In this document: positions 1,432 through 29,514 of the stretch, in pieces | Numbering within the stretch: the first letter of the stretch is position 1 | How the letters are laid out: each line of letters starts with the position of its first letter | Assembly (NCBI GenBank): GCA_020881915.1 | Contig: JAJFPB010000007.1 | Location: 2,480,001-2,544,000, forward strand | Direction of reading: 5' to 3' | Length of the DNA stretch: 64,000 bases | Source of the DNA: Paramyrothecium sp. XJ0827 | Taxonomy: Eukaryota; Ascomycota; Sordariomycetes; Hypocreales; Stachybotryaceae | Translations under genes and position numbers: made by a program | Notes under the pieces: model-generated | What the model was told of the DNA's origin: nothing | Database searches by the model: none | What the model saw: the letters and a program-made list of their open reading frames with translations, nothing else

Positions 1432-3487
1432 ATGGCAGCCGTATCTCTATCTCCCACGCCTGTCCCGATTGCGGCCATGTCCTCCAGACGAGGTCCCCTG
1501 ACCAGCAACCCCAACGTCGCCAACTCGCCTTTGCGAGCGGCCTCTACCCTGGCCGCCTACGGCAAACCGAAACGGTCCTATGCCAACTTACAGCGGGAAG
1601 AACCATATGGGCAGGCACCCCCTCTAAAGAAGCAGGTGCTCGAGAATGGGGCGCAACGAGCCGTTCGTTCTCCCACAAAACCGACACAGAGAAGCCAGGT
1701 TCTTGTCCAGCGTGCCCCCACGCGTCCAGCGACCAAGGAGCGATCCACCAGGGCACTGGCAGCTCCTAGAACCGTGCAAGATGTCGACACGGAGAAGGAA
1801 GTCTGGAAGAAGCACCACCGGGCTAAATTCCCCAAAATGGTCTTCTACTTTGAAAGCATCCCAGATGACATTCGGGCAAAGCTGACGAAGAGGGTCACTT
1901 ACCTTGGTGCTGTGCGTCTCAACTTGAAAAGCAACAGGCTTTGATTATCGATTGGCTGACTTTCTTGCAGCGCCACGAACCCTTCTTTTCCATCGATGTT
2001 ACACATGTCGTGACGACGCGTACCCTGCCGCCCGAAAGGTCCGAAGCTGAAGATGCCGACTTGATTGAACACACGGAGCAGGAGCTTGAGGAGCAGCCGC
2101 AAACGATCAACCCGTCTCTTCTTGACAAGAATACTGCGACACGCCGCAAGTTACTCTTTGAGTTTCGCAACGCTGCCACTCGTCCCCAACAAATCGACGA
2201 TCCAACGAAACGCAGCAAGGTTGCTCGCAACAACGATGTTCTCTACAAAGCCCGGGAGATGGGAAAGAAGGTTTGGTCATTAGACAAATTCCAGAACATG
2301 CTGTCAGTTCTTCTGGAATCAGAGCCGCAGCACAACTATACTACCAAGGCAACAACGCGTAGCCAGTACGGCGCTTCGAAAACCGCCAATGAGCCTAACC
2401 TTCACCAGCTCTTGCAACATGAGCGGTTGAATGGTCCATCTGATCGGGACCCAACGGCAGTGAACAGGGAGTTGACTTACTTCAAGGGTCCCTACTTGTA
2501 TATCTGGGATATGGATGAGAAGCAGAAGCCCATGATGGTGCGTGAATATCCGAAAGTTGCGAACAAGGCAGATGGAGAGTGGCCTCAGTTTCGCAGTGTG
2601 GGTAATGGCCGCTGTCCCTTCGTCGAAGAGGTGGACATCCCAGAAAAATCGCTCAGGAGGACGCGGGAAGAGGAGAAAGTAAAGACAGTCAGACGCGAGG
2701 AGCATGTGCCGCATCTCAAAGCCCCCGAGATTCCTGTCCCAAAGCCGGTGACAGGCAAGCGGCCATTGACGGAAATGGAGGACGCGCCGAACAAGATTCG
2801 AGCAGTGACGCCCACGGAGATCTTCAACCCAGCCAAGGCCGTCATGTCGAAGCAGACAAGCCAGCAGAACGCCTTTACTAGCAGGGCTGAGGGCGGGCGT
2901 CTCTTCGCTGGCGAGCCTGTAGCATCTGGTGTACAACCATCAAACATCACATCCGCTATCAGGTCTCAGATGATCTCGTCGACTTCTGGCATCAATGGTG
3001 CTAAAGCAGGGACTAGCAAGGAAGTCCATGGTCTTCAGCGGAAGGTTCTTCAGAAGGTCGCCCCTGCTTCTCATGACCTAAGCTCTCGCCGACCCGTTGA
3101 GGTATCAATGGATGTCGCCTCTAGCCGATCGACCACGATGGGTCGACCGACTTCAAAGACGGTGCATAATGTAGACGAAGACAGCCAGAGAACGGCCGAG
3201 GGCAAGGAGAGGAAGGCGAGCACGCAGTCTTTCAAGAGCAAGAAAGACTTGAAGCCTGGCTACTGCGAGAACTGCCAGGACAAATTCCGCGATTTTGACG
3301 AGGTATGTCAGCACGCCACCATCTTGTAGGACAATGACTTACCATGTTACAGCACATTCTATCTCGGAAGCACCGCAAGTTCGCAGACAATGACGAAAAC
3401 TGGACTGAGCTGGACCATCTACTCTCGCAGCTGAAACGCATGCCTAAATACGCTAACATGGAGTCGGACGAAGGCGAAGCCTGGTAG
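1432..3487 (+). CDS. DBF4: Dbf4/Dfp1-type regulatory subunit of Cdc7 kinase (DDK)
   Basis: Three exons: 1432-1911, 1971-3302 and 3353-3487, giving 648 aa. The product should activate the Cdc7 kinase that phosphorylates MCM at replication origins. The basic, Ser/Pro-rich N-terminus leads into a BRCT-like motif N (about residues 133-270: FPKMVFYFESIP, then FFSIDVTHVVTTR across intron 1, and KAREMGKKVWSLDKFQNML). Motif M follows at about 325-380 (TYFKGPYLYIWDMD, WPQF, CPFVEE). A C-terminal DBF-type zinc finger has C592, C595, H605 and H611. Intron 2 (50 nt) splits the finger just before its first His; joining gives FDE-HILSRKHRKF in frame. A downstream in-frame ATG at 1477 (MSSRRGPL) is an equally good start. 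The region between motif M and the finger is low-complexity and probably disordered. Confidence 0.92.
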
Positions 3488-4887
3488 CACGAATCACAAA
3501 CCTGACGCATCTTATACCCGCTCGCATTTTTACCTTTGATCTGGCTAATGAAACACCACCGACTACCAGGTCATTATCGCAGTCGCAGTGACAATGGAAC
3601 CACCATAATCGCTTGGTTTGTCACGAGGAAACTCGTACCTTAGGGACACACATCAAATGAAAGACACGCGCCGGAGCACGGCGCCTCATCCGAAGCTCTC
3701 TTGACAACACAAACACGGTGCCCATCATCCTTCGAACGACGTCAATTTCTTCACTTCTCCGAATACGGAATGCATGCGACGGGCGCACAGCGGCATGACC
3801 TAGCATTTTTGGACTTTATATTATATCATAGCAGTGGCGTTATCTTTCACTTGCGCAGACGTTTCAGGTTCCGACTTGGCGGTGATGCGCTCTCGGGTTG
3901 TATAGGACATGAGCAGGCATTGAGACTGTTGCGGCAGCAAGTTTTCGACGACGGTGGTTGGAGGAATCCACCGCGTCGAGGCAGATCCTGCCGGCCATTG
4001 CGTTGCACATATTGAGTAGATTATGTATATGTAGCTGCATTCTACAATCAGAACCCTTTGAAAACGTGGAGTTTGCGTTCCTAATCTCTGGGGTGATTCT
4101 AAATAAGCTGAACGATGAAGAGGACCAGCCTCTGGGTTACTTGTAATGGTGTCGAATGGCTGCCACCTCAGCACACGGTCAGCCAGTGTGTGGCATTGCA
4201 AAGTTGGCAGAATCTATATTTGGCTTGTCACCGCCGAACCACAAACAAAAGGCAATTCCAACCGCAAATCAGTGCTCTCACGAGGCGACGCTCACCGTAA
4301 TGGTTATACTGAGGTAACGTGCTATCCCGCGCGGTGGAAACGCTTCCTACCAAGGAAAACGGTGAAATAAAAAATGCAGGGCGCAAGCCTCCTTTCCGAG
4401 GCGTGCCCATGAATAAGGTAGGTAGGTAGGGAAGCATCATATCGGAATATGGCGGTCACATGCTTCTCATTGGTGCAGCCTGCCTGTGCCGCAGCTGCAG
4501 GACTGTGCAGGCAACTGGCTGAAATAACAAGCCGCCAAATTATTGAAGAGGATGCCAATTTTGGGGCTGGCGCCTGCTGGCCGTTCCTCAGGATCTAAAG
4601 TAATCCCAGAAGGGGAAGGCAAGGTCAGGGTCAGGGTCAGGTCGCGGTAAGAGAAAGTGCTCTTACCAACTACCTTACCTTAGAAATTCATCCAGGCCGG
4701 AACATCCCGAATTCTTGTCTCCATCCAAACATTACCACTTCACTCACTACCTTGCCATACCTTGACCTAATCTTACCTACCATTACCTTACATCGACCAC
4801 AATACTCCAAAGGTCGATTTGGCTCTTCCTTTGAGCATCGTTTCTGTGGTTCCCTCCTCAGCCTATCGCGTTGCTTTTCTGCCCGTC
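3488..4887. other. Intergenic region DBF4 - PAL (1.4 kb)
   Basis: No gene is recognised. The left part should be the DBF4 3' UTR. The right part, up to the PAL start, carries ACCTTACC/GGTAGGTAGG tracts (4415-4430, 4661-4790) and a short AGGTCAGGGTCAGGGTCAGG direct repeat at about 4621-4641. Small open frames have no coding character. Confidence 0.5.
4661..4790. repeat. ACCTTACC/ACCTACC-rich island in the PAL upstream region
   Basis: Repeated short units such as CTACCTTACCTTA, CTACCTTGCCATACCTTGACC and CTTACCTACCATTACC cluster within 130 bp, ending about 100 bp before the PAL ATG. Their position suggests promoter or 5' UTR. Similar islands recur at several other intergenic sites in the window. 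Function is unknown. Confidence 0.5.
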
Positions 4888-7041
4888 ATGACCGGGGTTA
4901 CAGCCTCACCGTACACGACCTCTGTACTCCAAATCTGGAAGACAGTCCAAGAACTCAAGAACGGGACCCGGAACATAATTCTGGATGGGAACGGCCTGGA
5001 CATTGCCTCCGTCATCGCCGTAGCTCGCTTTGGAGTGAAGCCGCAAGTCAGCGACGATGAAGAGCTCGCCAAACGCCTCCAGCTTGGTGTCGACGCCCTA
5101 GCCGCATACCTCTCGAAGCAATGGATTGTTTACGGCGTCAACACAGGATTCGGTGGTAGCGCAGATACCAGGACCAACGATCTGATAGATCTTCAAATTG
5201 GTGTCCTGCAGCACACGCAAAGTGCCGTCATCACAACCTCGGATAAAGAGCCAGCGACCAACTCCGCCAGGGAGCCTCCCCATGTGATGCCGCCAGAATG
5301 GGTGCGAGGCGCAATCGTGGCTCGCGCAAATCAGAATCTCCGAGGACACAGCGCTGTTCGCTTGGAAGTGCTGCAGAACCTAGTGCAGCTTCTACACAAA
5401 GACATCACCCCCCTGGTGCCCATACGCGGAACCGTTTCTGCTTCAGGAGATCTCATGCCCATGTCTTATATCGCCGGAGCACTCACAGGCAACCCCGACG
5501 TTTTCGTGCAGATGGGCGAGGGGCCAGAGCTCAAAGTATTATCGGCCTCCGATGCACTCCGCCTGACGGGACTTTCACCGTCAGGCCTTGGACCCAAGGA
5601 AGCCCTTGGCTTGATCAATGGCACTGCACCTTCCGTCTCCGTGGGTAGTCTCGTGCTTTATGACGCCCAAAGGCTTGCTCATCTCTCACAAATGCTGACT
5701 GCGTTTGCCGCCGAGTCCATGGGAGGCAATGTCGAATGGACTCTCCCATTTATCCATGCTGCTCGTCCGCACCTAGGTCAGATCGAAGCAGCCAGCAACA
5801 TCCGCAGATTCCTCCAGGGTTCCCATTTCGTCGAAGGTCTCGAGCAACGGAAGCGTACCGGCGACGGACTTTGGCAGGATCGCTACTCGACACGAACAAG
5901 TCCTCAATGGATCGGTCCTTACCTCGAAGACCTTCTGCTTGCACAGCGTCAGATTGAGGTGGAGCTCAACTCGACATCGGACAACCCTCTAGTGGATGCT
6001 TCCACCGGTGAAGTATACTCGGGCGGTAACTTCCAGGCTGTGGCTATCACCTCGGCCATGGATAAGACCCGTCTTGCTCTCCAGATGATCGGCCGCATGC
6101 TCTTTTCCCAAGTCACTGAGATAATCAATCCATCAACCAACAATGGACTTGAGGCCAACCTCAATGCCAGCGACAGGGAGAATTTCACCATGAAAGGCAT
6201 CGATGTCAACATGGCGGCATACATGTCAGAACTTGCCGCTCTGGCCCACCCAGTCTCGTCCCATGTCATGTCTGCCGAAATGCACAATCAGGGAATCAAC
6301 TCTCTCGCACTCCTTTCCGCGCGGCGTACTGCAGAGGCTGCAGATTTGGTTGCACACATGTGTGCATGTCATCTCTACGTTTCGTGCCAAGCCGTCGACC
6401 TTCGAGCGAGTCACAGGTCGTTCCTGGCAGAAATCAAGGAGAAGGTGCTCAACGACACAACTTCGCAAGGAGTCTTTCATGCTTTGGGCTTGGAGGCTAC
6501 CAAGATCGATGCTCTGACGCAGATTCTCCTTCCCATTGTCGAGGCAACTTGGTACCATTGGAACGCTAATTCTTGGAAGGACCGCATTCCGCCGGTCATC
6601 GAAGCTATTGTGGCACCAGTGACTCGTTTCCTTGAAGCCGAAGGAGTAAACTGCACAATCTTGCAGTTGAATACATTTACCAAGGAATTTAGTAGAGCAT
6701 TCACTGAAGTCGCTGAAAGAAACTTCTTTCCCAACGCTACGACCCAACCAGATGCTGTGGCTACTCAGTTAGGAGACGGAACCTCTCAGCTGTATACATG
6801 GGTCCGTTCCAAGCTTGCCGTCCCAACACACTTCGGCATCGGCGATGATCCGTTATACAATGCAAAACGGGGTCTCTCGACGGACGGGAAGAAGACGATT
6901 GGGAGCTGGGTGAGCTTGATTTACGAGAGTTTGAAAGGGCCTTGCCTGGACATGGTAATGAATGGTGTTGAATCGTCGCGGAGAGCGCCACGAACTTCGC
7001 AGGAGTATGAGGAGTTATGCAAGCACATGGAGACACTGTAG
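4888..7041 (+). CDS. Phenylalanine/tyrosine ammonia-lyase (MIO enzyme)
   Basis: Intronless, 717 aa from the ATG at 4888. Class I aromatic amino-acid ammonia-lyase: deaminates L-Phe (and possibly L-Tyr) to cinnamate or coumarate. The MIO cofactor triad Ala-Ser-Gly is intact at about residues 185-187 (RGTVSASGDLMPMSYIAG). The catalytic loop is YGVNTGFGGSADTR (Tyr about 82). Later motifs are SSHVMSAEMHNQGINS and a C-terminal helical extension typical of PAL and absent from bacterial histidine ammonia-lyase. The substrate-selectivity pair reads His-Thr (LQHTQ, about 109-110), unlike His-Gln of yeast PAL or Phe-Leu of plant PAL as I recall them, so Phe/Tyr preference is uncertain. The frame is open upstream to about 4819 but contains no earlier ATG. 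Length fits fungal PALs (about 700-740 aa). Confidence 0.93.
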   Translation: MTGVTASPYTTSVLQIWKTVQELKNGTRNIILDGNGLDIASVIAVARFGVKPQVSDDEELAKRLQLGVDALAAYLSKQWIVYGVNTGFGGSADTRTNDLIDLQIGVLQHTQSAVITTSDKEPATNSAREPPHVMPPEWVRGAIVARANQNLRGHSAVRLEVLQNLVQLLHKDITPLVPIRGTVSASGDLMPMSYIAGALTGNPDVFVQMGEGPELKVLSASDALRLTGLSPSGLGPKEALGLINGTAPSVSVGSLVLYDAQRLAHLSQMLTAFAAESMGGNVEWTLPFIHAARPHLGQIEAASNIRRFLQGSHFVEGLEQRKRTGDGLWQDRYSTRTSPQWIGPYLEDLLLAQRQIEVELNSTSDNPLVDASTGEVYSGGNFQAVAITSAMDKTRLALQMIGRMLFSQVTEIINPSTNNGLEANLNASDRENFTMKGIDVNMAAYMSELAALAHPVSSHVMSAEMHNQGINSLALLSARRTAEAADLVAHMCACHLYVSCQAVDLRASHRSFLAEIKEKVLNDTTSQGVFHALGLEATKIDALTQILLPIVEATWYHWNANSWKDRIPPVIEAIVAPVTRFLEAEGVNCTILQLNTFTKEFSRAFTEVAERNFFPNATTQPDAVATQLGDGTSQLYTWVRSKLAVPTHFGIGDDPLYNAKRGLSTDGKKTIGSWVSLIYESLKGPCLDMVMNGVESSRRAPRTSQEYEELCKHMETL

Positions 7042-8204: not shown

Positions 8205-9268
8205 TCAAATATCCTTGACGGCGTTCGAGAAAGTCTCCAGTTCCTCCTGCGCAATGGGATAGGTGTGTTCCGTGGCAGGGTACTCTCTGCTCTTCACCTC
8301 ATCCCTGTATGATTCGATGGCCTTCATGGACTCGGCCCACACGTTGCCGTACTGCTTGACAAACTTGGGCAGGAAACGACCCGGGGGAAAGTTTCCAGTC
8401 ATGTCAACCTGGACAAGGACCTGGCCGGAGCAGCCGTTGCCGGCGCCGATGCCGATGGTGGGAATGGATAGCTTTTCGGTTACAAGAGCGGCAACCTCGG
8501 CCGGGACGGCCTCGATGACAACGGCAAAGCACCCGGCTGCTTGCACGGCCAGTGCATCCTCCAGAAGTCGCATGGCGCCGTGGGAGGTTTTGCCCTGGAC
8601 TCGGAAACCTCCGAGTGCGTGCTGCCGCTGTGGAGTGAGACCCACGTGGCCAAGGACAGGAATGCCGGCTGTGGTGATCTTCCGGATCGTGGGTGCCATT
8701 TCCTTCCCGCCCTCGATCTTGACACCTTGGACTCTGCCCTCTTTGATAAAGCGGATGGCGGTGGTTAGGGCTTGTTCTGGAGAAATCTCATACGTCCCCA
8801 TTGGCAAATCGCCGACCTACATGAACACGATTAATATACTTGCAAAGACGGTTCAGAATATAATGGACTTACAGTAAACGCAGCCGAAGTAGCACGTGCA
8901 ACAGAGCGACAGTGCAGCAGCATCTCTTCCAAGACAACCTCGCTCGTATCCTCCATGCCCAGCGCCACCATGGCCAAGCTGTCGCCGACAAGGATCATAT
9001 CCATGCCAGCATGATCGGCAACGTGTGCACTAGGGAAATCATGGGCAGTTATCATCGTGATGGGCTCCTTCTTCCTGTACAAGGAGCGCAAAGTGCCCAT
9101 TGTGACTTTCTTGCGTGCATTGGCAGCAGGCGAGCCCAATGGAGAGTGAGAGCTGTGCCTCTGTTGGGACGTGACAGCTAACAAGGGACGGACGGTGAGG
9201 GTAGTTGGTCGCGTGCTACGGCCCAGCTGGGCGGCGCACGACCTTGCAAATGTGCCGACGAGTGACAT
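8205..9268 (-). CDS. panB: Ketopantoate hydroxymethyltransferase (pantothenate synthesis)
   Basis: Two minus-strand exons, 8873-9268 and 8205-8816, give 335 aa. The enzyme adds a hydroxymethyl group from 5,10-methylene-THF to 2-oxoisovalerate, forming ketopantoate, an early step to pantothenate and CoA. Residues 1 to about 50 are Arg/Ser/Thr-rich with almost no acids, consistent with a mitochondrial presequence as in other fungal PanB. The TIM-barrel motifs are complete: MITAHDFPSAHVADHAGMD, VGDSLAMVALG, GDLPMGTYEIS across the splice, GKTSHGAMRLLEDA, VIEAVPAEVA (catalytic Glu) and IPTIGIGAGNGCSGQVLV. The 56-nt intron (8817-8872) has GTAAGT and TAG ends and restores AFTVGDLPMG. The start chosen is the ATG at 9268; the frame extends upstream but has no earlier ATG. 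Confidence 0.95.
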
Positions 9269-10877: not shown

Positions 10878-11900
10878 ATGAGCAGCCCACGCCGAAGGAT
10901 CGAGACTGATGTGAGTGCCCGTTCCGTGATGCGATGCTTGGACGTCAGAGGATGCTAATACATCATTTTACCTAGGTCATGAAGTATGAATTAACGTCCA
11001 AGCACTTTCTTTCCGTGGCACGAACTAACATGGCGTAGGATGTACGATTGCTCCTCCGATGACGGCTCTCGGAGCTCCCGACTGACACAAGCAGGTTGAT
11101 GAGCGACTACGAAGTCACGCTGGTCAACGACAACAGTAAGGCCGCTTTACACACCGTTGAAACGGCCGGCTATGCTAACACTAAGTAGTGTAGGCATTCG
11201 GAGCCCATCTACGAAAGGGCACTGAGTTAACGGAAGACGACAGGCAGGAATTCTTTGTGCGCTTCAAGGGACCAACAGAGAGTCAGCTCAAGATTCTTGT
11301 GACCGATGACCTCAAAACATGTGCTAACGCTACTCGTAGCACCATTCGAGGGTGGCCTCTGGAAGATTCACGTCGAGCTACCCGACTCTTACCCCTACAA
11401 ATCGCCTAGCATCGGGTTCGTGAACCGCATCTTCCACCCGAACATCGATGAGCTGTGAGTTCCCCCGATTGTACAGAGCTTGGGATTGTGAAGAGCATTT
11501 TGTAACATTATTCGGCTTCCCTCAGATCCGGTTCCGTTTGCCTCGACGTCATCAACCAAACATGGTCTCCCATGTACGATATGATCAACATCTTCGAAGT
11601 GTTTCTGCCTCAGCTTCTTCGCTATCCGAATCCTACAGACCCTCTCAACGGGGAGGCTGCAGCCCTTCTGATAAGAGAACCAAAGAGCTACGAGTCAAAA
11701 GTCAAGGGTATGGTGAACATTATAGGCATGCAACCGTGGTCTCGTACTGACTACTGCTCCTAGAATATGTACAAAAGTATGCCAACAAAGATGCCGCGGA
11801 CGATGCCGGTGCCGAAAGCGAGGATGACGACGACATGTCTTCTGTGGGAAGCTTTGGCGACGACGACGACGAACCCGCCGGCCAGATGGACGATGTATAA
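10878..11900 (+). CDS. UBC8: Ubc8/UBE2H-type E2 ubiquitin-conjugating enzyme, nine exons including 3-nt and 1-nt exons
   Basis: Predicted exons: 10878-10910, 10976-10983 (8 nt), 11039-11041 (3 nt), 11095-11135, 11189 (1 nt), 11244-11281, 11340-11454, 11526-11707 and 11764-11900, total 185 aa. This E2 family serves the GID/CTLH ubiquitin ligase that degrades gluconeogenic enzymes. The start has a strong context (CCACCATGA). Family sequence dictates the splicing: [18 protein letters not shown] requires the GAT microexon, and [18 protein letters not shown] requires A|T|G from three exons. Every resulting intron is 53-71 nt with GT/AG ends, most with a CTAAC/CTGAC branch motif. The UBC core has [18 protein letters not shown] and [15 protein letters not shown] (active Cys85). 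The tail is acidic, as in Ubc8. The product is secure; the microexon model needs cDNA. Confidence 0.9.
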
Positions 11901-12425: not shown

Positions 12426-13499
12426 CTAATCAGAGTCGTAGCTCACCAGTCCGCTCGTAGCTGTAGCTTGTGGTTTCAACGCCACCGCACGGGCAGGCGA
12501 GTCGGCATCGTTCGCTTCTACGACGTCGCGCTTCCTCTTTACGCCTGGCAGCCGCGCGGGCGCCTTGGGCTCTGCGGACCTGTGGTCGTTGAGAAACGGA
12601 TCCTGCAACACTCGCGTGTTCCCCATGACCTCGGTGGCGAAGGTCGTCTTGCGCTCAGCGGCGCGCTTCTCAGCCTTGAGCCGGCCGGCGGGGCGTGCCG
12701 GGCCGGGCTTGGAGCTTGCGAAGAGCGGCTTCGAGAGGGCCGCCCGCGCTGTGCGGCCGACCTCGCCGTCGTTGTCGGATGCCGGGGCAAAGTCTACAAG
12801 AGAAGCCCGCTTGGCATCCTCCTCAGTTGCGGGAAGTAGGTCGATGCCAAGGCTCAGTCTGTCCTTGAGGTTCTCGGCAGCCGCGGCGTCGCGCTCCCTC
12901 TCCTTCCGGCCGACACGAAATGCCTTGCGCAGGCGCTGGTTCTGGGCGTACGGGTCGTCCCAGTGGCGCGCTGACAGGGCTGAGAGGTCGTGGATCCGGT
13001 CGGCGGCTTGCTCGAGCCGCTTGCGGTCCTCGATGGTGCGCTCGAGGCTGGCGAAGGCGTTGCTGCGGAGGGCCTCGCGCTGCTCGTCCGTCAGGGCAGC
13101 GAGGCCGCCCTCGCCGGGCTCGCCAGCGTCGCCGGGCCCCGTGTCCCGCTTGGCGGCGCCCTCGACGACGACGTAGGCCGTGTTCTTGGGGTCGGTGCGC
13201 ATCTCGATGGCGCCGCCGCAGTCGGCGTGGCGGAAGCGGAAGCTCCACACCGGCGTGGAGTAGTAGCTGCCGACCTTCTTCTTCTCGGCGTTGAAGCGCA
13301 CGCCCTGCCCGATGACGGTGGGCTTGGGGCACGAGCCGCACCAGACGGGGAAGGGCATCTCGAAGCGGACCGTGAGGATGCCGTGCGAGGCGAGCTTGGA
13401 GGCGCGCGCGCCGAGGGCGTGCTTCCCGTGGACCTTGTTGGCGGAGGTCGTGCCCTCGAGCTCCGGGGGCACGTAGCGCCCCATGTTGAAGCCCTGCAT
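12426..13499 (-). CDS. CWC16/CCDC130 (Saf4-like) splicing factor
   Basis: Intronless, 357 aa, GC-rich. The N-terminal YJU2/CWC16 domain (residues 1 to about 110) begins MQGFNMGRYVPPE and contains LTVRFEMPFPVWCGSCPK, GQGVRFNAEKKKVGSYYSTPVWSFRFRH and IEMRTDPKNTAYVVVEGA, diagnostic of CCDC130/Saf4 within the Yju2 superfamily. These proteins associate with the catalytic-stage spliceosome. The zinc site appears to be CxxC plus HxxC (RHADC) rather than two CxxC pairs. The rest is coiled-coil and basic low-complexity sequence with a nuclear-localisation-like PGVKRKRDVVEA near the C-terminus. High GC produces long antisense open frames, which I treat as artefacts. Confidence 0.9.
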   Translation of the reverse strand: MQGFNMGRYVPPELEGTTSANKVHGKHALGARASKLASHGILTVRFEMPFPVWCGSCPKPTVIGQGVRFNAEKKKVGSYYSTPVWSFRFRHADCGGAIEMRTDPKNTAYVVVEGAAKRDTGPGDAGEPGEGGLAALTDEQREALRSNAFASLERTIEDRKRLEQAADRIHDLSALSARHWDDPYAQNQRLRKAFRVGRKERERDAAAAENLKDRLSLGIDLLPATEEDAKRASLVDFAPASDNDGEVGRTARAALSKPLFASSKPGPARPAGRLKAEKRAAERKTTFATEVMGNTRVLQDPFLNDHRSAEPKAPARLPGVKRKRDVVEANDADSPARAVALKPQATATSGLVSYDSD

Positions 13500-14174: not shown

Positions 14175-16613
14175 TCAAAATGCGCCCCAACTTGGCGGCC
14201 GATCCTGTGGCCTCGTGCCCCAAGTCGACTCCTCGCTGCCCAGGGTAAGCTCCAGTGTCCACCCTTCTGTGAAGAACTCATGCCCAATCCACGACTTCGA
14301 CCATGGCTCCCCATTCACATTTGCACTCTGCACATGCAGTGCTTCGTATGTAAGGTCAAAGTTGATGTTCTTGATGGTGGCCGTTTTCCCAGTCGCTGGA
14401 CTGGTGATGTTCACTTCCTCAAAGAACGGCGGCGTGATAAGGTAGACGTTCTGTCCCGCCACCGGGAACAATCCGATCACGGAGAAGAACAGAAAAGCAC
14501 CCATGGCACCGGAGTCGTCGTTGCCGGGCAGGCCTCCCCATGTTGAGTTGAACGCCGATGGGATGTACGTATGGATTCTTTGTGCGGAGAGCGACGGTCG
14601 ACCGGCGTAGTGGTAGAGGAAGACGGTGAGGAAGACGGGCTCGTTGGAGATATCGGCTAGACCAGACGTGTGGAAAAAGTTGAGGCGCGATATGAAATCG
14701 TCGTCTCCGCCTGTAAGTGCAATCAATGACGAAACAGCGTGAGGAACGAAGCTGGCTGCACGTTAGCAAGAGGAAGCCGCATACACAACGAAGCTGGCCG
14801 TGGCTCACAAGAGATACTGCCAGATACTGGCCTCGAATGTCTCGCTAGGATTGCTGGTCAGAGAACACCAACCCGCAAGGGCCGAGCAGGCGATAGGGTC
14901 CTGGAAGCCCCACGTTCCGTTGAGATACTTGGGTTGGAAGAAGCCGACGAACCCGGTGTCTGTGCCGTTGATGATGGACGTCTGGTCTTCCCTCCAGAGG
15001 TTCTGCCAGTTCATGCTGCGGCCCGAGTATTTCTCGTGGACGTCCGTACGCCCCAGACCCTCCCCGAGCGTTGCGAGGCAGAAGTCATCGTATGCGTATT
15101 CCAGGGTGCGAGACACGCTTCGAGAGTTTGTGCCGAACCCGAAAGGGTCGAAATCCAGATATGGTATGTAGTCAAGCGTTCTCCAGCTCTGGAGCCCGCC
15201 GCGCCCATGGAACGCCCATTCCAAGGGCTCCTTCTCGGCGTCCACAATGATCGCTTCCAGGGCAAGGTCCCAGTCGATGCTGCTGCTGAGATTCTTCACG
15301 TAGGCATCGACCAGGACGACGTCGGCATTGGAGCCGCCCTGGGTCCAGCCATTGCAGAAGGACATGTGGCAATCCGGGAGCCAGCCTTCGTGCTGGTATA
15401 TGTCCAGCAGGGAGTTCACCATCTGCGTCTGTGCATCCGGGTCGATGACGGTCAGAAGAGGATGCTGGACACGAAAGCTGTCCCAAATACTAGCGACGAT
15501 CGCAGTCAGCCGTCATGTCAAGCCTTGTAGTAAGGCTAGCGCTCACCAGTAAAACGAGTCAAAGTAAGGGATGCCGCTGTCCCAGTAGGGATTCTCTCCC
15601 GTATAGTTTTGAGGCGAGATCATGTTGCGGTACGCGCCGCTCCAAAAGCTCTTCAGAAGGTCATCAGTGACACCCGATCCCTCAACGGAGATGACACTGA
15701 GCTTGCCCGTCCATGCTTGCTTCGCTTCCTCGACGAGACTGTCGAAATCATCGAGTGGCGACGGTATCTCAGCTTCGGCGTTCTGACAGGCTTGCTCGCT
15801 GCTCACGAAGCTGACGCCGACCCGAGCCGTTACTGTGCCATCTCTTGCAGGATCAAACCTCGCGAACCCGCCGCCTTGAGCATAAAAGAGGTTGAAGCCG
15901 CGGGTGATGAACATCTCCTTGGGCTCGGTCCCCGCTCTACTGTTGCTCCAAACGCCGGTCTCGAAGACGTCGGCGCCAAAGAAATCGACGCAATAGTGTG
16001 CGCTGTAGTACCCGGCGCCAAAGCTGGGCAGAAACGTTCCATTGCCGGTCATTCTCCCAGACTCCGGGTCAACACTGACCGAAGCATTCTGGCGACTTTT
16101 CCACAAGTCGGTAAGGTCCAGCAGGATGAGAGGGTGCCCGCCATCAGGCGGAAATGTGAAGCGAAACAGAGCCGCATGCTCCGAGACGGTCATGTCTGCT
16201 TCGATGCCGGAGTCCAACTTTAAACGAAACCGTCCCGGTTCTGCAATGACAGAATCTAAATCGTAATGGACCTTCCTCTCGTCTATGAGAAACTTGCAAT
16301 TGTTCAGCTCATCATCTGGGCACATCTGGGGGAAGAGGGGGAAATTCCCCAGGCTCGGATTCCCTCCCGAACCGCTATCGTGAAGAATTGAGAAGCCCGT
16401 CACATTGCTGCCGTCCATGCCGAAGCCGCCATAGTTCTGGCCGTCCACATCGGCGACGGCTTTTGCAAGACTGTACGGCAATGTCGCGCCGGGAAAGACG
16501 TTCCCGCCGTTGATGCTGCCGATCAACGGATCAATATATGAAAGCGTATCCGCAGCCACGGCTCCAAAGACACCGGCGGCTTGGGCAGCGAGAAGTGTGG
16601 TTGCGAAACGCAT
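14175..16613 (-). CDS. Secreted GH92 alpha-1,2-mannosidase
   Basis: Three minus-strand exons, 15547-16613, 14809-15489 and 14175-14751, give 774 aa; both introns are 57 nt. The protein starts MRFATTLLAAQAAGVFGAVA, a signal peptide, and is predicted to be secreted. The N-terminal beta-sandwich has YIDPLIGSINGGNVFPGATLP and GFSILHDSGSG. The catalytic domain has YFDSFYCIWDSFR (Cys formed at splice 1), NGWTQGGSNAD, WRTLDYIPY and IWQYLFFVPHAV (splice 2), plus the GNDDSGAMGAF loop holding the acidic pair used as base in GH92. Family role: Ca-dependent exo-mannosidase removing alpha-1,2-mannose from glycans. Two further in-frame ATG or near-start codons lie upstream (16655 is ATG), but 16613 places the signal peptide at the N-terminus. 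Confidence 0.92.
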
Positions 16614-17110
16614 CGTCACTCGAGTACACGACAAGCCTTGGATCGAAACTATCATTTCTCTGCGCGGTTGAGCTGCTGTGGTTCGTGCTTCATATAACAA
16701 TGGCTTCGCTCCAAGAATGTGCCCCTCAATGTAACGTGCGGCATGGACAAGGTAGCATTTTGAAAGTCAAGACCTGCGGTGCCATCACAAGATGACGTGA
16801 AGATCTCTGCAACACAGCATCATGTGCCGGGCATCTCGACCCCGCTCCCCGCCATTCAACCAGTCTTTTGGTCGGGTGGTATTCGGTGGGAGTTTACAGA
16901 AACACACACAAAAATCGTCGTGCCGGAATGCTGGCGCTGGATAGGAATTGTACTAAATAAAGCTTGCCATGGTATAACACCGCTCATCGAACTTTCTTGT
17001 CATACAAGCACACGCTAGCCCTCCTTCATCTTGCACTACTTCGAACAAATGGCAATGGTATTGCACTGCTCCCTTGCTTAGTTCAACCCCAAGGATCTCG
17101 GCCAACTTCA
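16614..17110. other. Intergenic region GH92 - sirtuin
   Basis: 497 bp between two minus-strand genes: GH92 promoter and sirtuin 3' UTR. No gene or repeat is recognised. Confidence 0.4.
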
Positions 17111-18164
17111 TCACTCATCCTTCTTAAAAGACCCATCTTGCTGGCGCTCTCCAATGACTGGCTTCAATAGGATGGGGAGATACTCGGCGGCATCTTGTCC
17201 GAACGCGAAATCGCCAGGCTTGATCTTGTGCAGCTCCGACTCGTCCTCGGCCTCCGGATTGACAATGACAATGCGCGCTCCGAGAGACCTGGCTTGCGGG
17301 ATATAACTTGCAGCAGGGTGGACCTTTGCCGAGGTGCCGATGACGAACATCAAGTCCTGGGCGACGTGTCAACGGTCTCGTCTCATTCTTCACTGGTCAT
17401 CGCGTGACTTACCACCTTGTCTTTGAAGGTCCACTCATCAATGCCCATCAGCATCTCTTCGTCCAAGCTCTCTCCAAACCATACAACGCCAGGACGCTGC
17501 AGTCCAACTTTGCATTTGGGGCAAGTGGGCAGCTCCTCCTCGGGAATCCGTTCAATGGGATGCATGGGGTCTAGCAGCGCCAGCTTCTCGCCCGGCGGCA
17601 CGTCCACGGACGCCGGTGCGAGCGCTGGACAGAAGGGGTCATCGTAGTTCTCGTGCTGAATCCAGTCACAAGACGAGTTGCTGCACTTAATGTCAAAGAG
17701 CGAGCCGTGGAGTCGACGGAGATATTCCGGGGGATGCTCCGCCCTCTGCGAGAGGTCTACCTGACCGTCAGCATGGGGTTCTCTTCATCTGTGGATTTTG
17801 CCTGCATCGCAAGTGAGAGGCACGGCCCCGAGGAAAACGTACTGTCCACATTTTGCGTCAGGCACAAAAAATCATCACGTTTCTCACGCGCCAACGCCGC
17901 CAAAGCGTAGTGCGCTGCGTTGGGCTCGGCGCGCAAAGACATGTGTCTCCTGTAGCCGTAAAACAGCCAGACGAGCCCGGGGTCGTTCCTGAAGGCATTC
18001 ATGGTCGCTAGCGCCGTGGCGTCGTAGCTGCGCCAGTAGCCCCCGGCGCCCCGGAACGTCGGGAGGCCGGAGGAGGCGGACAGGCCGGCCCCGCAGAGGG
18101 CCAGGATCCGCCGGCTGCCCCGGAGCACCTCGCGGAACGCTTCGACGTCGTTGTGCGGCGCCAT
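17111..18164 (-). CDS. Class III (SIRT5-like) sirtuin, NAD-dependent deacylase
   Basis: Minus-strand exons 17843-18164, 17413-17756 and 17111-17356 give 303 aa from the ATG at 18164. NAD-binding motifs are GAGLSASSGLPTFRG, TQNVDN (formed at splice 1) and VIGTSAKVHPAASY; the catalytic His is in LHGSLFDIKC. Zinc ligands are CSNSSC and CPKC. The FYGYRRHM segment matches the Tyr-x-x-Arg signature that lets SIRT5 accept acidic acyl groups, so desuccinylase/demalonylase activity is predicted. Joining the 86-nt intron gives VDNLSQRAEHP; the 56-nt intron gives KDKVDLMFVIG. An in-frame ATG at 18356 would add 64 acid-free, Ser/Arg-rich residues that could be a mitochondrial presequence. The start at 18164 has a good context (CAGCCATGG). 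Confidence 0.9.
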
Positions 18165-18724
18165 GGCTGTGCTGGCGGTCGGTCGTAGGTTGTACGTGAA
18201 ACTTGAGAATGGAGAGGATTGCTTTTGGCTCAATGACGGCGATGCGGGGGCGTGACGGCTTGCTACCAACAAAGAGGACTGAACTGGGTTAATAAGGCAG
18301 CTTGTCCACCGCTTGGGGGCTATGAGAGTAGAACGAATGGAGGGGCTTATATGCATATTCCAGGCAACCGAGTTCGGAATGTTCCAACACTCTTTTACGG
18401 TTGCTATTAGAGTTGCAAGTAGAGCCTTGCCGAATTCCCCGTTTTGAAGCGAGCGTATTGGTTAATGGCGATCGTTGTGGCCAAACCCAATCAGGGAACC
18501 CACCCCCCCGTCAAAGCCATCTGCGACAAACCCGTTGCATAACTCTTCTGGTCATTATTTTATTTTATTTCTTGATGTTTATTGGTCTATTTGGCGTCCT
18601 TTCACTTTCCTGCTTGCCTCCTACGTGCCATGTGCAGCTTGATAAAACCACCCGTGAGGCACACCAGTAACTGAACAGCGCTTCGCATGTAAGTCGCTGA
18701 CAAGCATGCTGGCCAGAAGGACAT
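18165..18724. other. Sirtuin upstream region / ADH 3' region
   Basis: 560 bp. The part from 18165 to 18356 is open in the sirtuin frame and may be 5' UTR or an alternative N-terminus. The rest holds a T-rich stretch (18545-18580) and no recognisable gene. Confidence 0.4.
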
Positions 18725-24760: not shown

Positions 24761-26121
24761 ATGTTCTCCAAGTCCATTGTCCTGGCCCTCGCGGCTGCCT
24801 CCATGGTGTCTGCTCAGACCCACACCGACTGCAACCCTCTTGAGAAGAGTATGTCCCCTATTTCTTAAACCAAAGCAACTGATCGGGAAGCTTTTGGTCG
24901 CTCGACGAATTATATCTGACATTTATCCTACAGGCTGCCCTGCCAACCCTGCCCTGGGTAACGAGAGGATCAACTGCGACCTGACCAAGGGTCCCTGCAG
25001 CGCTTTCAAGGAGCTCGATGGCACTTCTCTGACCTACAACGAGCGTGGTGCTGTCTTCAGCATCGAGAAGGACACCAACGCCCCCACCATCCACAGCGAC
25101 AAGTTCATCTTCTTCGGCCGTCTCGATGTCGAGGTCCAGGCTGCCGCTGGCGCTGGTATTGTGACCAGCTTGGTCCTTCAGTCCCAGGATCTCGATGAGG
25201 TATGTTGTTTCGCCACGAAACCATGGCAACTTTCACTAATCAACCGCATAGATCGACTGGGAATGGGTTGGTGGTGATGACGAGCAGGTTCAGACCAACT
25301 ACTTCTACAAGGGCGACACCACCACCTACGACCGTGGTGCTTTCCACCCTGTTCACCAGTCCCTGACCACTGTCCACAAGTACTCCATCGAGTACAACTC
25401 CAAGGCCGTGACCTGGTTCGTTGACGACGTCGCCGTCCGTACCCTGACCTACGAGGAGGCCAACGGTGGCAAGCACTTCCCCCAGACCCCCATGCAGATC
25501 CGCCTCGGCACCTGGGTCGCTGGACGCAAGGGTGCTCCTCAGGGCACCGTCGAGTGGGCCGGTGGTCTCGCCGACTTCAGCAAGGCTCCCTTCAACGCCT
25601 ACTACAAGAGCATCTCCATCACCGACTACGCTGGCGGTGACGCCCCTACCTCCGAGAGCATCAAGGAGTACCTCTATGGCGACAAGACCGGCACCTGGCA
25701 GAGCATCAAGATCATCAAGGGCGACGGTTCCAGCGAGGACAACAAGGACGAGGAGGAGGAGAAGGAGACTACCTCTGCTAAGCCCTCTGCCAAGCCCACC
25801 AAGAGCGCCGAGGAGGAGGAGGAGAAGACTACCAAGTCTGCCGAGGCCACCAAGACCAAGTCCGCCGAGGAGGAGAAGGAGACCACCTCTGCTGCTGAGA
25901 AGACCACCAGCAAGGCCGCTCCCTCCACCACCCTCGCCACCAGCACCTCTGCTGTTACCACCTCTGCTCCTTCCACCTCTGCCGCTGCCTCCACCAGCGT
26001 GGAGGCTCCCGCTGCCACCACTGCCCCCCCCGACGCTCCCCCCTCTGCCGCCAACGCCCTGAGCCTCGGCAGCGCCCTGCTCGTCGGTGCCGGTCTCTTC
26101 GTGGCCCAGATCCTCATCTAA
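24761..26121 (+). CDS. GPI-anchored GH16 CRH-type chitin-glucan transglycosylase
   Basis: Exons 24761-24848, 24934-25199 and 25252-26121 give 407 aa. The CRH family joins chitin to beta-glucan in the fungal wall. The signal peptide is MFSKSIVLALAAASMVSAQ. Conserved CNPLEKSCPANPALG, with two Cys flanking intron 1, precedes the GH16 domain. The catalytic E-I-D-W-E motif occupies residues 118-122 (nucleophile E118, acid/base E122); intron 2 falls directly after E118. Acceptor-side motifs are TNYFYKGDTTTYDRG and RLGTWVAGRKGAPQGTVEWAGG. From about residue 275 the chain is a Glu/Lys- and Ser/Thr/Ala-rich stalk, ending in a hydrophobic GPI-attachment tail (LGSALLVGAGLFVAQILI). Third positions are strongly C-biased, implying high expression. 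Confidence 0.95.
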
Positions 26122-27963: not shown

Positions 27964-29514
27964 CTAGATCTTCCTGGTGACTCCCACGTCGTTCCATGCC
28001 TGTCGGACTATCTTGGCCTCCTCATCCCCGATTTCTTCAGCTACCTCGACCGTTGCATCGGCAAACTGTAAGAATGTGCACTTGCTGGGGAGTTTACCAC
28101 TATTCAGTGCTTTCCACCAAATCTTGCCGGCCTTCTCCCATGAATAGCCACCAAAGGCAACGCTGGCAAGGTAGAAGGCCTTATTGGGGATGCCAGAGTA
28201 GATGTGAACACCGCCATTGTCTTGAACTGTTGTTCTGTACCCAGACATGTGTGCGGGCTGAGGATCCTTGCCCTGAATGCCTTTTCGTTAGTACACGAAA
28301 AGCTCTATATTGATCGGAATAACTTACGAAGCGAGGATCATCGTAGGCGGTCCCTGGCTCTTTCATGCTCCGTAATGCAACCCCCTTGACCCCCGGTAAG
28401 ATACAGTCTTCACCAATAAGCCAATCCGCTACCTCTGCTTTTTCGTCCTGGATTTTCTGCTTGATCATGATGCCGAAAACATCCGAGACGTGCTCGTTGA
28501 GAGCTCCTGGCTGCCCCCAATAATCGAGGGGGCTTGTATGCTCCGTTACGGCATGAGACAGCTCGTGGCCGATGACATCGATGCAGCCGGTGAAGTTGTT
28601 AAGAAACTCATCGCCATCGCCGAAGACCATTTGCAGTCTCTCAGGATCCCAGACTGTGCGAGTCAGTATGGCAGTACGTCATTTGAAAAAAACGACAAAT
28701 GACATACATGCGTTTTCGTAGTTTTCGCCAAAGTGAACAGTGCTGATGACTTTTGTGTTGGCGTTGTCAGTGGACTGCCAGTCAAAGTGTTCTTTGTAGA
28801 ATTTGAGCACTGCGCCAACATTGTCGTAGGCTTCATTGACACTCTTGTCCTCAGATGCGTGTCCACCTTCGGCCCTCACAAGCTTTCCAGGGAGCTTAGC
28901 CTCGATCGAGCTGTTGTTGGCATCGTAGATCTCACGTTTAGCGGTTTTCGGTGCTTTGGGATCGTCTTTCTTTTGGTCGGGAGGGGCTGGAGCATACCAT
29001 GGTTAGCAATACTAGCTTCCAACGGTTGCTCAAACTTACCAGTTCTGGCCGCGAGCTGCTTGACATGCTTCAGGGTGTACTGGGCACTATCACGGTTGGA
29101 CTCATCGATGTCTCGAGACTCGGAGACATGACGAAGAAGGTGAGGAGGAACAATGCCGGTGTTGGAGCCGACAGGCTGGGCACCACGTTGACGTACGAGC
29201 GCAGCAGCGACACCCTCTTGCCTTGCGGCAACGAAGAGATCTCGAGCTTGCAAAGAAGCCCTGGCAGATTGACGAACTTTCTCTGGATTGTGAGGTGAAT
29301 CTGCGATGCCTTGGAGGAGATGTGGTGGAACGATGCCATGAATGGTATTGGCATCATGAGAACGACGAGAACGTGTGAGGACACGCTGTTCAAACTCGGA
29401 TTGCTGCATTTTGAAAGCCAGCCAACTGCCCAAGTGGGTTTTGAGCGAGGCTTGGGTTGATTTCGCGATAACTTCAAGCAAGTAAGGAGTGACGATGGAG
29501 CAGAGGATAGGCAT
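27964..29514 (-). CDS. Thermolysin-family (M4) metalloprotease, protealysin-like, with triplicated propeptide motif
   Basis: Minus-strand exons 29040-29514, 28708-28986, 28328-28653 and 27964-28272 give 462 aa; introns are 53-55 nt. The M4 domain has NAFWDPERLQMVFGDGD (joined at splice 2), the zinc motif HELSHAVTEH (H281, E282, H285), third ligand E305 in GALNEHVSD, and catalytic H383 in NGGVHIYSGIPNKAFYLA. All key residues are intact. The first 159 residues hold three units with the motif IVTPYLL, IVPPHLL and IVPPHLL at about 7-13, 61-67 and 121-127. One such PP(H/Y)LL motif is typical of the short protealysin propeptide. No signal peptide is evident, and bacterial protealysin-type enzymes also lack one. 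The family is mainly bacterial, so ancient horizontal transfer is plausible. It is divergent from the Sec63-domain gene. Confidence 0.9.

Follow-up and report, generated by a model that had tools for sequence, protein, structure and literature searches.

A predicted single-nucleotide coding exon in the Ubc8/UBE2H-type E2 gene of Paramyrothecium sp. XJ0827

Results

A predicted nine-exon E2 gene with three very small exons

The window analyzed here is a 64,000-nt stretch of DNA from Paramyrothecium sp. XJ0827. Table 1 gives the coordinates of its Ubc8/UBE2H-type E2 gene, with exons and introns as predicted, and of neighboring genes recognized by their Pfam matches. A long open frame at 4819-7041 (+) corresponds to an aromatic amino acid lyase (Pfam PF00221).

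Table 1. Predicted features of the window, in window coordinates
Feature	Position	Strand	Details
Dbf4-like (Dfp1/Him1)	1941-3329	+	Pfam
Ketopantoate hydroxymethyltransferase	8205-8807	-	Pfam
Ubc8/UBE2H-type E2 gene	10878-11900	+	nine exons
Exon 1	10878..10910	+	33 nt, ATG at 10878; encodes 11 residues
Exon 2	10976..10983	+	8 nt, GTCATGAA (Val-Met-AA.); between TAG and GTATGA
Exon 3	11039..11041	+	3 nt, GAT; between TAG and GTACGA
Exon 4	11095..11135	+	41 nt, ends AACA, phase 1
Intron 4	11136..11188	+	53 nt; donor GTAAGG, branch-like CTAAC 11175-11179, acceptor TAG
Exon 5	11189..11189	+	predicted 1-nt exon, T; second base of the Met codon A|T|G
Intron 5	11190..11243	+	54 nt; donor GTAGGC, acceptor CAG
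Exon 6	11244..11281	+	38 nt
Exon 7	11340..11454	+	
Exon 8	11526..11707	+	
Exon 9	11764..11900	+	stop TAA 11898-11900
GH92	15543-16700	-	Pfam
Sir2	17757-18356	-	Pfam
GH16	25408-26121	+	Pfam
M4 peptidase piece	28181-28630	-	Pfam

Spliced as predicted, the nine exons of the E2 gene give 558 nt and a product of 185 aa without an internal stop. The eight introns measure 65, 55, 53, 53, 54, 58, 71 and 56 nt. The predicted protein belongs to the Pfam family UQ_con (E = 1.3e-39). Its best match among solved structures is 8pmq chain E (named E2-24 kDa; E = 1.1e-71), which we take to be yeast Ubc8, and the next matches are 8pjn and 2z5d, whose chains are named E2 H. The family and these closest solved relatives place the product among the Ubc8/UBE2H-type E2 enzymes, which transfer ubiquitin with the GID/CTLH ligase. 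No second copy was found in the organism's own genome (51.8 Mb, 15 contigs), in which other E2-like matches were at most 49% identical. An earlier note on this DNA, which had proposed the single-nucleotide exon described below, overlooked two other tiny exons of the gene, the 8-nt exon 2 and the 3-nt exon 3. The latter finishes a Lys codon and begins a Met codon.

A predicted single-base exon between two introns

Exon 4 closes with ...AACGACAACA at position 11135, and exon 6 opens with GCAGGAATTC at 11244. The phase-1 end of exon 4 (AAC A) does not fit directly onto exon 6, which begins G CAG GAA TTC: the codon between them lacks one base. The T at 11189 would supply that base. Exactly one nucleotide lies here between an AG and a GT, both flanking introns are of workable length, and the T is needed both for the frame and for the family text NDN-Met-QEF; other in-frame parses produce foreign text. 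In the alignment to 8pmq chain E, NDSMQEF stands against the NDNMQEF of the window, Met to Met.

Intron 4 ends with TAG at 11186-11188, and an AAG lies three bases upstream of it. Its GCTAAC places a branch-like A at 11178, 10 nt ahead of the last intron base. Intron 5 ends with CAG at 11241-11243. Its donor, GTAGGC, differs from the most frequent donor form, and the intron is without a perfect CTRAC, the branch candidates being CTGAG 11222 (18 nt from the end) or TTAAC 11227 (13 nt). The two exon ends, the T, the TAG acceptor, the GT donor and the upstream GCTAAC on which the earlier note had built its proposal are all found in the sequence, and its remark that introns of 53 and 54 nt are sized like the gene's others agrees with the remaining six (53-71 nt).

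We enumerated the ways of joining AAC (which ends at 11134) to the downstream frame, allowing GT or GC as donor, AG as acceptor and no more than two introns, each at least 35 nt long. This enumeration returned 36 parses that stay in frame and meet no stop, 11 of which use GT donors alone. A single one of the 36, with introns 11136-11188 and 11190-11243, gives Met-QEF, which bears out the claim that T 11189 is the sole route to the family text. The companion claim, that a single GT-AG intron cannot restore the frame, does not stand: seven such introns do so, all with 3-24 foreign residues replacing Met, and one of them also loses the Gln. For example, 11136-11236 replaces Met by NDR, and 11185-11243 replaces it by 17 residues.

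A T exon between two introns, each 45 nt or longer, arose by chance in 0.92% of 20,000 dinucleotide shuffles of the interior; requiring also a YAG acceptor preceded at 8-25 nt by CTRAY lowered the share to 0.055%. The corresponding values for 20,000 slices of the window were 1.0% and, with YAG acceptor and CTRAY, 0.065%. Together with the text of relatives given below, the unique parse strongly supports the core reading of the locus, a predicted 1-nt exon consisting of T 11189, and the mRNA of this species would be expected to contain the T.

Other ways to close the frame gap

The AAG at 11183-11185 could itself act as the acceptor, being three bases from the TAG. This choice would create a 4-nt exon, TAGT (11186-11189, +), with Ile-Val in place of Met; it stays in frame, with a product of 186 aa, and might occur as a minor NAGNAG isoform. 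The earlier note had named this outcome among those that would count against its own proposal. The resulting DNIVQ text appears in 0 of the 243 listed relatives (described below). As side evidence, intron 3 has the same kind of pair, AAG-CAG, and there the family text requires the distal CAG; moreover, only 7 nt separate the AAG in intron 4 from the branch-like A, compared with 10 nt for the TAG. We judge use of the AAG to be very unlikely.

A longer exon followed by a single 59-nt intron (11185..11243, +; donor GTAGTG) also keeps the frame, with 17 residues for Met and a product of 201 aa. It gains some plausibility from the public model of Paramyrothecium foliicola (P0010; Stachybotryaceae, Hypocreales), whose protein is identical to that of the window from QEF to the C terminus (156 residues). 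Where read-through of intron 4 in the window yields 17 residues, P0010 carries a 17-aa stretch, SKAALRFADVAGHANMK, of equal length and at the same place. However, the two stretches are similar only near the donor and branch ends and differ in the middle, a pattern of likeness that looks like that of introns, and the stretch contains a donor and a branch-like motif. Continued unspliced, it runs into an in-frame TAG, and no such insert occurs in any of the 54 listed transcript-like relatives. A longer coding exon is, in our estimate, extremely unlikely.

Finally, the missing base could reflect a one-base deletion in a pseudogene, or an assembly error. The frame gap itself is all that speaks for a deletion. 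All nine exons are open, the genome yielded no second copy, and models from many other genomes break at the same spot, so that we attach negligible probability to this explanation.

Listed gene models of Pezizomycotina fail at the predicted tiny exons

Three protein searches, each represented by the best 120 of its 5,682, 5,734 and 5,877 matches, gave 243 distinct proteins. Two plant-labelled rows (P0001 and P0123) were removed before counting, leaving 241: 54 transcript-like sequences, 17 models from outside the Pezizomycotina and 170 Pezizomycotina models. Transcript-like sequences are those with sources solely in lgn, jgi, ena or merc, a class assigned from contig size and the open frame; their contigs are mostly 0.9-2.8 kb, with three longer, up to 7.3 kb, and one without a stated length. 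The subphylum and class of most genera are presumed; six lineages were looked up. A search for orthologous DNA found no relative in viral contigs and, in genome contigs, only three distant prokaryotic E2-like loci.

Among these listed relatives, whose sequences are related to one another and so not independent, Met stands before (Q/S)EF in all 54 transcript-like sequences, in all 17 non-Pezizomycotina models and in 17 of the 170 Pezizomycotina models. The first search alone, with the predicted protein as query, gave Met in 10/78 Pezizomycotina models, in 40/40 transcript-like sequences (38 by the strict pattern) and in 1/1 other. The query of the third search, P0170, is itself a garbled model and therefore favors garbled models.

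The spacing between anchors locates the failures. At introns 6, 7 and 8, exact spacing was found in 154, 167 and 154 of the 170 listed Pezizomycotina models; the controls gave 51, 51 and 49 of 54 (transcript-like) and 16, 17 and 12 of 17 (non-Pezizomycotina), with misses due mostly to an absent anchor. The 1-nt site was exactly spaced in 49/54 transcript-like, 15/17 non-Pezizomycotina and 20/170 Pezizomycotina sequences (anchor absent in 5, 2 and 35, respectively), and the 8+3-nt site in 49/54, 17/17 and 47/170 (anchor absent in 5, 0 and 22). Thus, these Pezizomycotina models fail at the 1-nt and 8+3-nt sites but seldom at the other three junctions.

The text NDN-Met-Tyr is present in 22 of the 170 listed Pezizomycotina models (3 from the first search, 4 from the second and 15 from the third). 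If exon 4 ends in A in these species as it does here, A|TG TAY would give this text, that is, an acceptor, the T, and then a GTAY donor read as coding sequence. A G-first codon follows the Tyr in 21 of the 22, or in 20 of 21 without P0236, whose Gly may be native; for comparison, the G-first share inside inserts is 171 of 827 residues (21%). We read this G as the probable +5 G of the donor. The genera concerned are Fusarium and Beauveria, which we take to be Sordariomycetes; Aspergillus, Penicillium and Paecilomyces, presumably Eurotiomycetes; and, with lineages looked up, Hortaea (Dothideomycetes), Lasallia and Kuettlingeria (Lecanoromycetes) and Sclerophora (Coniocybomycetes). Because the NDN-MY text occurs in five classes, the T exon looks ancient. 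The text pattern used at the Met site left 32 of the 170 models unparsed, and 7 of those 32 are NDN-MY models.

S-x|QEF occurs in 20 of the 170 listed models, as expected if the donor had been moved by four bases (A.GTxx|G), which would repair the one-base gap. NDN-K-F[YF]V occurs in 19 of the 170 listed Pezizomycotina models, including P0024, P0025 and P0138; the proposed T exon does not account for this class, and neither for it nor for models with a single R before QEF did we find a canonical splice choice that yields the text. At the 3-nt exon, 47 of the 170 listed Pezizomycotina models have VMK-LMSD, as if the exon had been skipped, and 17 have VMK-MY, as if its donor had been read through, the next codon being G-first in 17 of 17. 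The text of the public models suggests that the 3-nt exon, too, is widespread in the Pezizomycotina.

Discussion

We consider it very likely that T 11189 is a coding one-nucleotide exon between two ordinary short U2-type introns of a Ubc8/UBE2H-type E2 gene, and that these introns are removed sequentially, each being recognized across its own ∼54 bases. Short fungal introns are usually recognized in this way. Since hardly any space separates the intron-4 acceptor from the intron-5 donor, the two introns most likely leave one after the other, and it is from this arrangement that we infer stepwise removal. The first splice would join the T to one neighbor, and the second intron would then resemble any other. 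In the predicted mRNA, exon 4, the T and exon 6 would read ...GACAACATGCAGGAATTC, with the T as second base of the codon for Met29 (A|T|G). Predicted U1 pairing of the intron-5 donor was −5.3 kcal/mol before and −4.6 kcal/mol after removal of intron 4, values that do not favor the removal of intron 4 first.

The frame would stop after 68 residues if the T is left out, after 45 if intron 4 is kept and after 29 if intron 5 is kept. Other errors would not be fatal: use of the AAG acceptor or of the donor at 11185, both considered above, would keep the frame, as would skipping of the 3-nt exon, which leaves 184 aa.

The earlier note had likened the unit to a stwintron, and sequential removal, which two touching introns presumably need, does fit that comparison. 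Stwintrons of Hypoxylaceae and others likewise involve, in filamentous ascomycetes, two successive removals at a single site, but, in the available parts of the sources, they are nested (PMC9024468, PMC8469720, PMC12403724): the donor, branch element or acceptor of one intron is interrupted by an internal intron (PMC8469720, PMC12403724). Here, both introns have complete ends with one base between them, so the unit does not qualify as a strict stwintron, and the probability that one intron is nested in a splice element of the other is, to our minds, practically nil.

One-base exons are already known elsewhere, and the T exon of UBC8 would add a further example. The comparisons that follow hold for the available parts of the sources cited. 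One is found in Arabidopsis APC11, in which a constitutive single-nucleotide exon between two introns is essential for the frame (Guo and Liu 2015, PMC4674806). APC11 is, like UBC8, a gene of the ubiquitin system; unlike UBC8, it is a plant gene tested with minigenes, its split intron measures 422 nt overall, and the parts of that paper available to us report no second tiny exon. One-nucleotide microexons of plant APC11 and VPS55 are deeply conserved and absent from reference annotations (Yu et al. 2022, PMC8831610); these differ from the present case in belonging to land plants and in being proven by RNA-seq and RT-PCR.

A one-nucleotide exon is also reported for Fusarium CYP621A, in a paper that presents its finding as the first of the kind in a fungal gene (Nelson and Syed 2026, PMC12940212). 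Both genes are from Hypocreales, in both the exon is the middle base of a codon, and in both the public models are wrong; in CYP621A, however, the base is G (AGGGT), the gene is a P450 gene, reported in Fusarium, and 18 RNA reads support the exon. Single base exons in snoRNA host transcripts of Candida parapsilosis and relatives, where the splicing pathway was inferred by RNA-seq (PMC5033589), also lie between fungal introns one base apart, but these transcripts are noncoding, the yeasts stand outside the Pezizomycotina, and no frame hangs on the base. Mitochondrial one-base exons, in placozoan cox1 (PMC5436844) and in rnl of an Ophiostoma-group strain (PMC12308204), share with UBC8 the one base between two introns but are not spliceosomal, the fungal case involving group II introns. 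The Trichoderma virens Xlr2 microexon (PMC11121469) shows a small exon in a gene of Trichoderma, but it is an alternatively spliced switch and not a single base. Our literature search, whose reach ended short of subscription papers and most preprints, found no publication on a one-base exon in UBC8.

Within the literature searched, the only fungal nuclear protein gene already credited with a one-base exon is CYP621A, so that UBC8 would be the second; it would also be the first fungal case with an apparent spread over at least five classes. Such a spread would make it well suited to studying how the spliceosome copes with an exon below the size that can be recognized. To judge from the manner in which public gene models fail, the T exon would be conserved across the Pezizomycotina. 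It would also explain a systematic error, since the Met text is absent from 153 of the 170 listed Pezizomycotina genome models. Errors in UBC8 models matter both for gene-prediction software and for users of those sequences.

We think it probable that the 1-nt and 3-nt exons, both in one housekeeping E2 gene, predate the split of the leotiomyceta into classes and have been retained ever since; their origin may go back to the ancestor of the Pezizomycotina. No ultra-short coding exons of greater age would then be known in fungi, and most of the public models examined would annotate these two wrongly. By persisting, the two exons may help to restrict translation to mRNA that has been spliced completely and step by step.

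A minor observation concerns the gene just downstream of the E2 gene and convergent with it. It encodes, at 12426-13499 (-), a protein of the Saf4/Yju2 family (Pfam PF04502), which is a family of splicing factors. That such a gene adjoins an oddly spliced one is probably due to chance.
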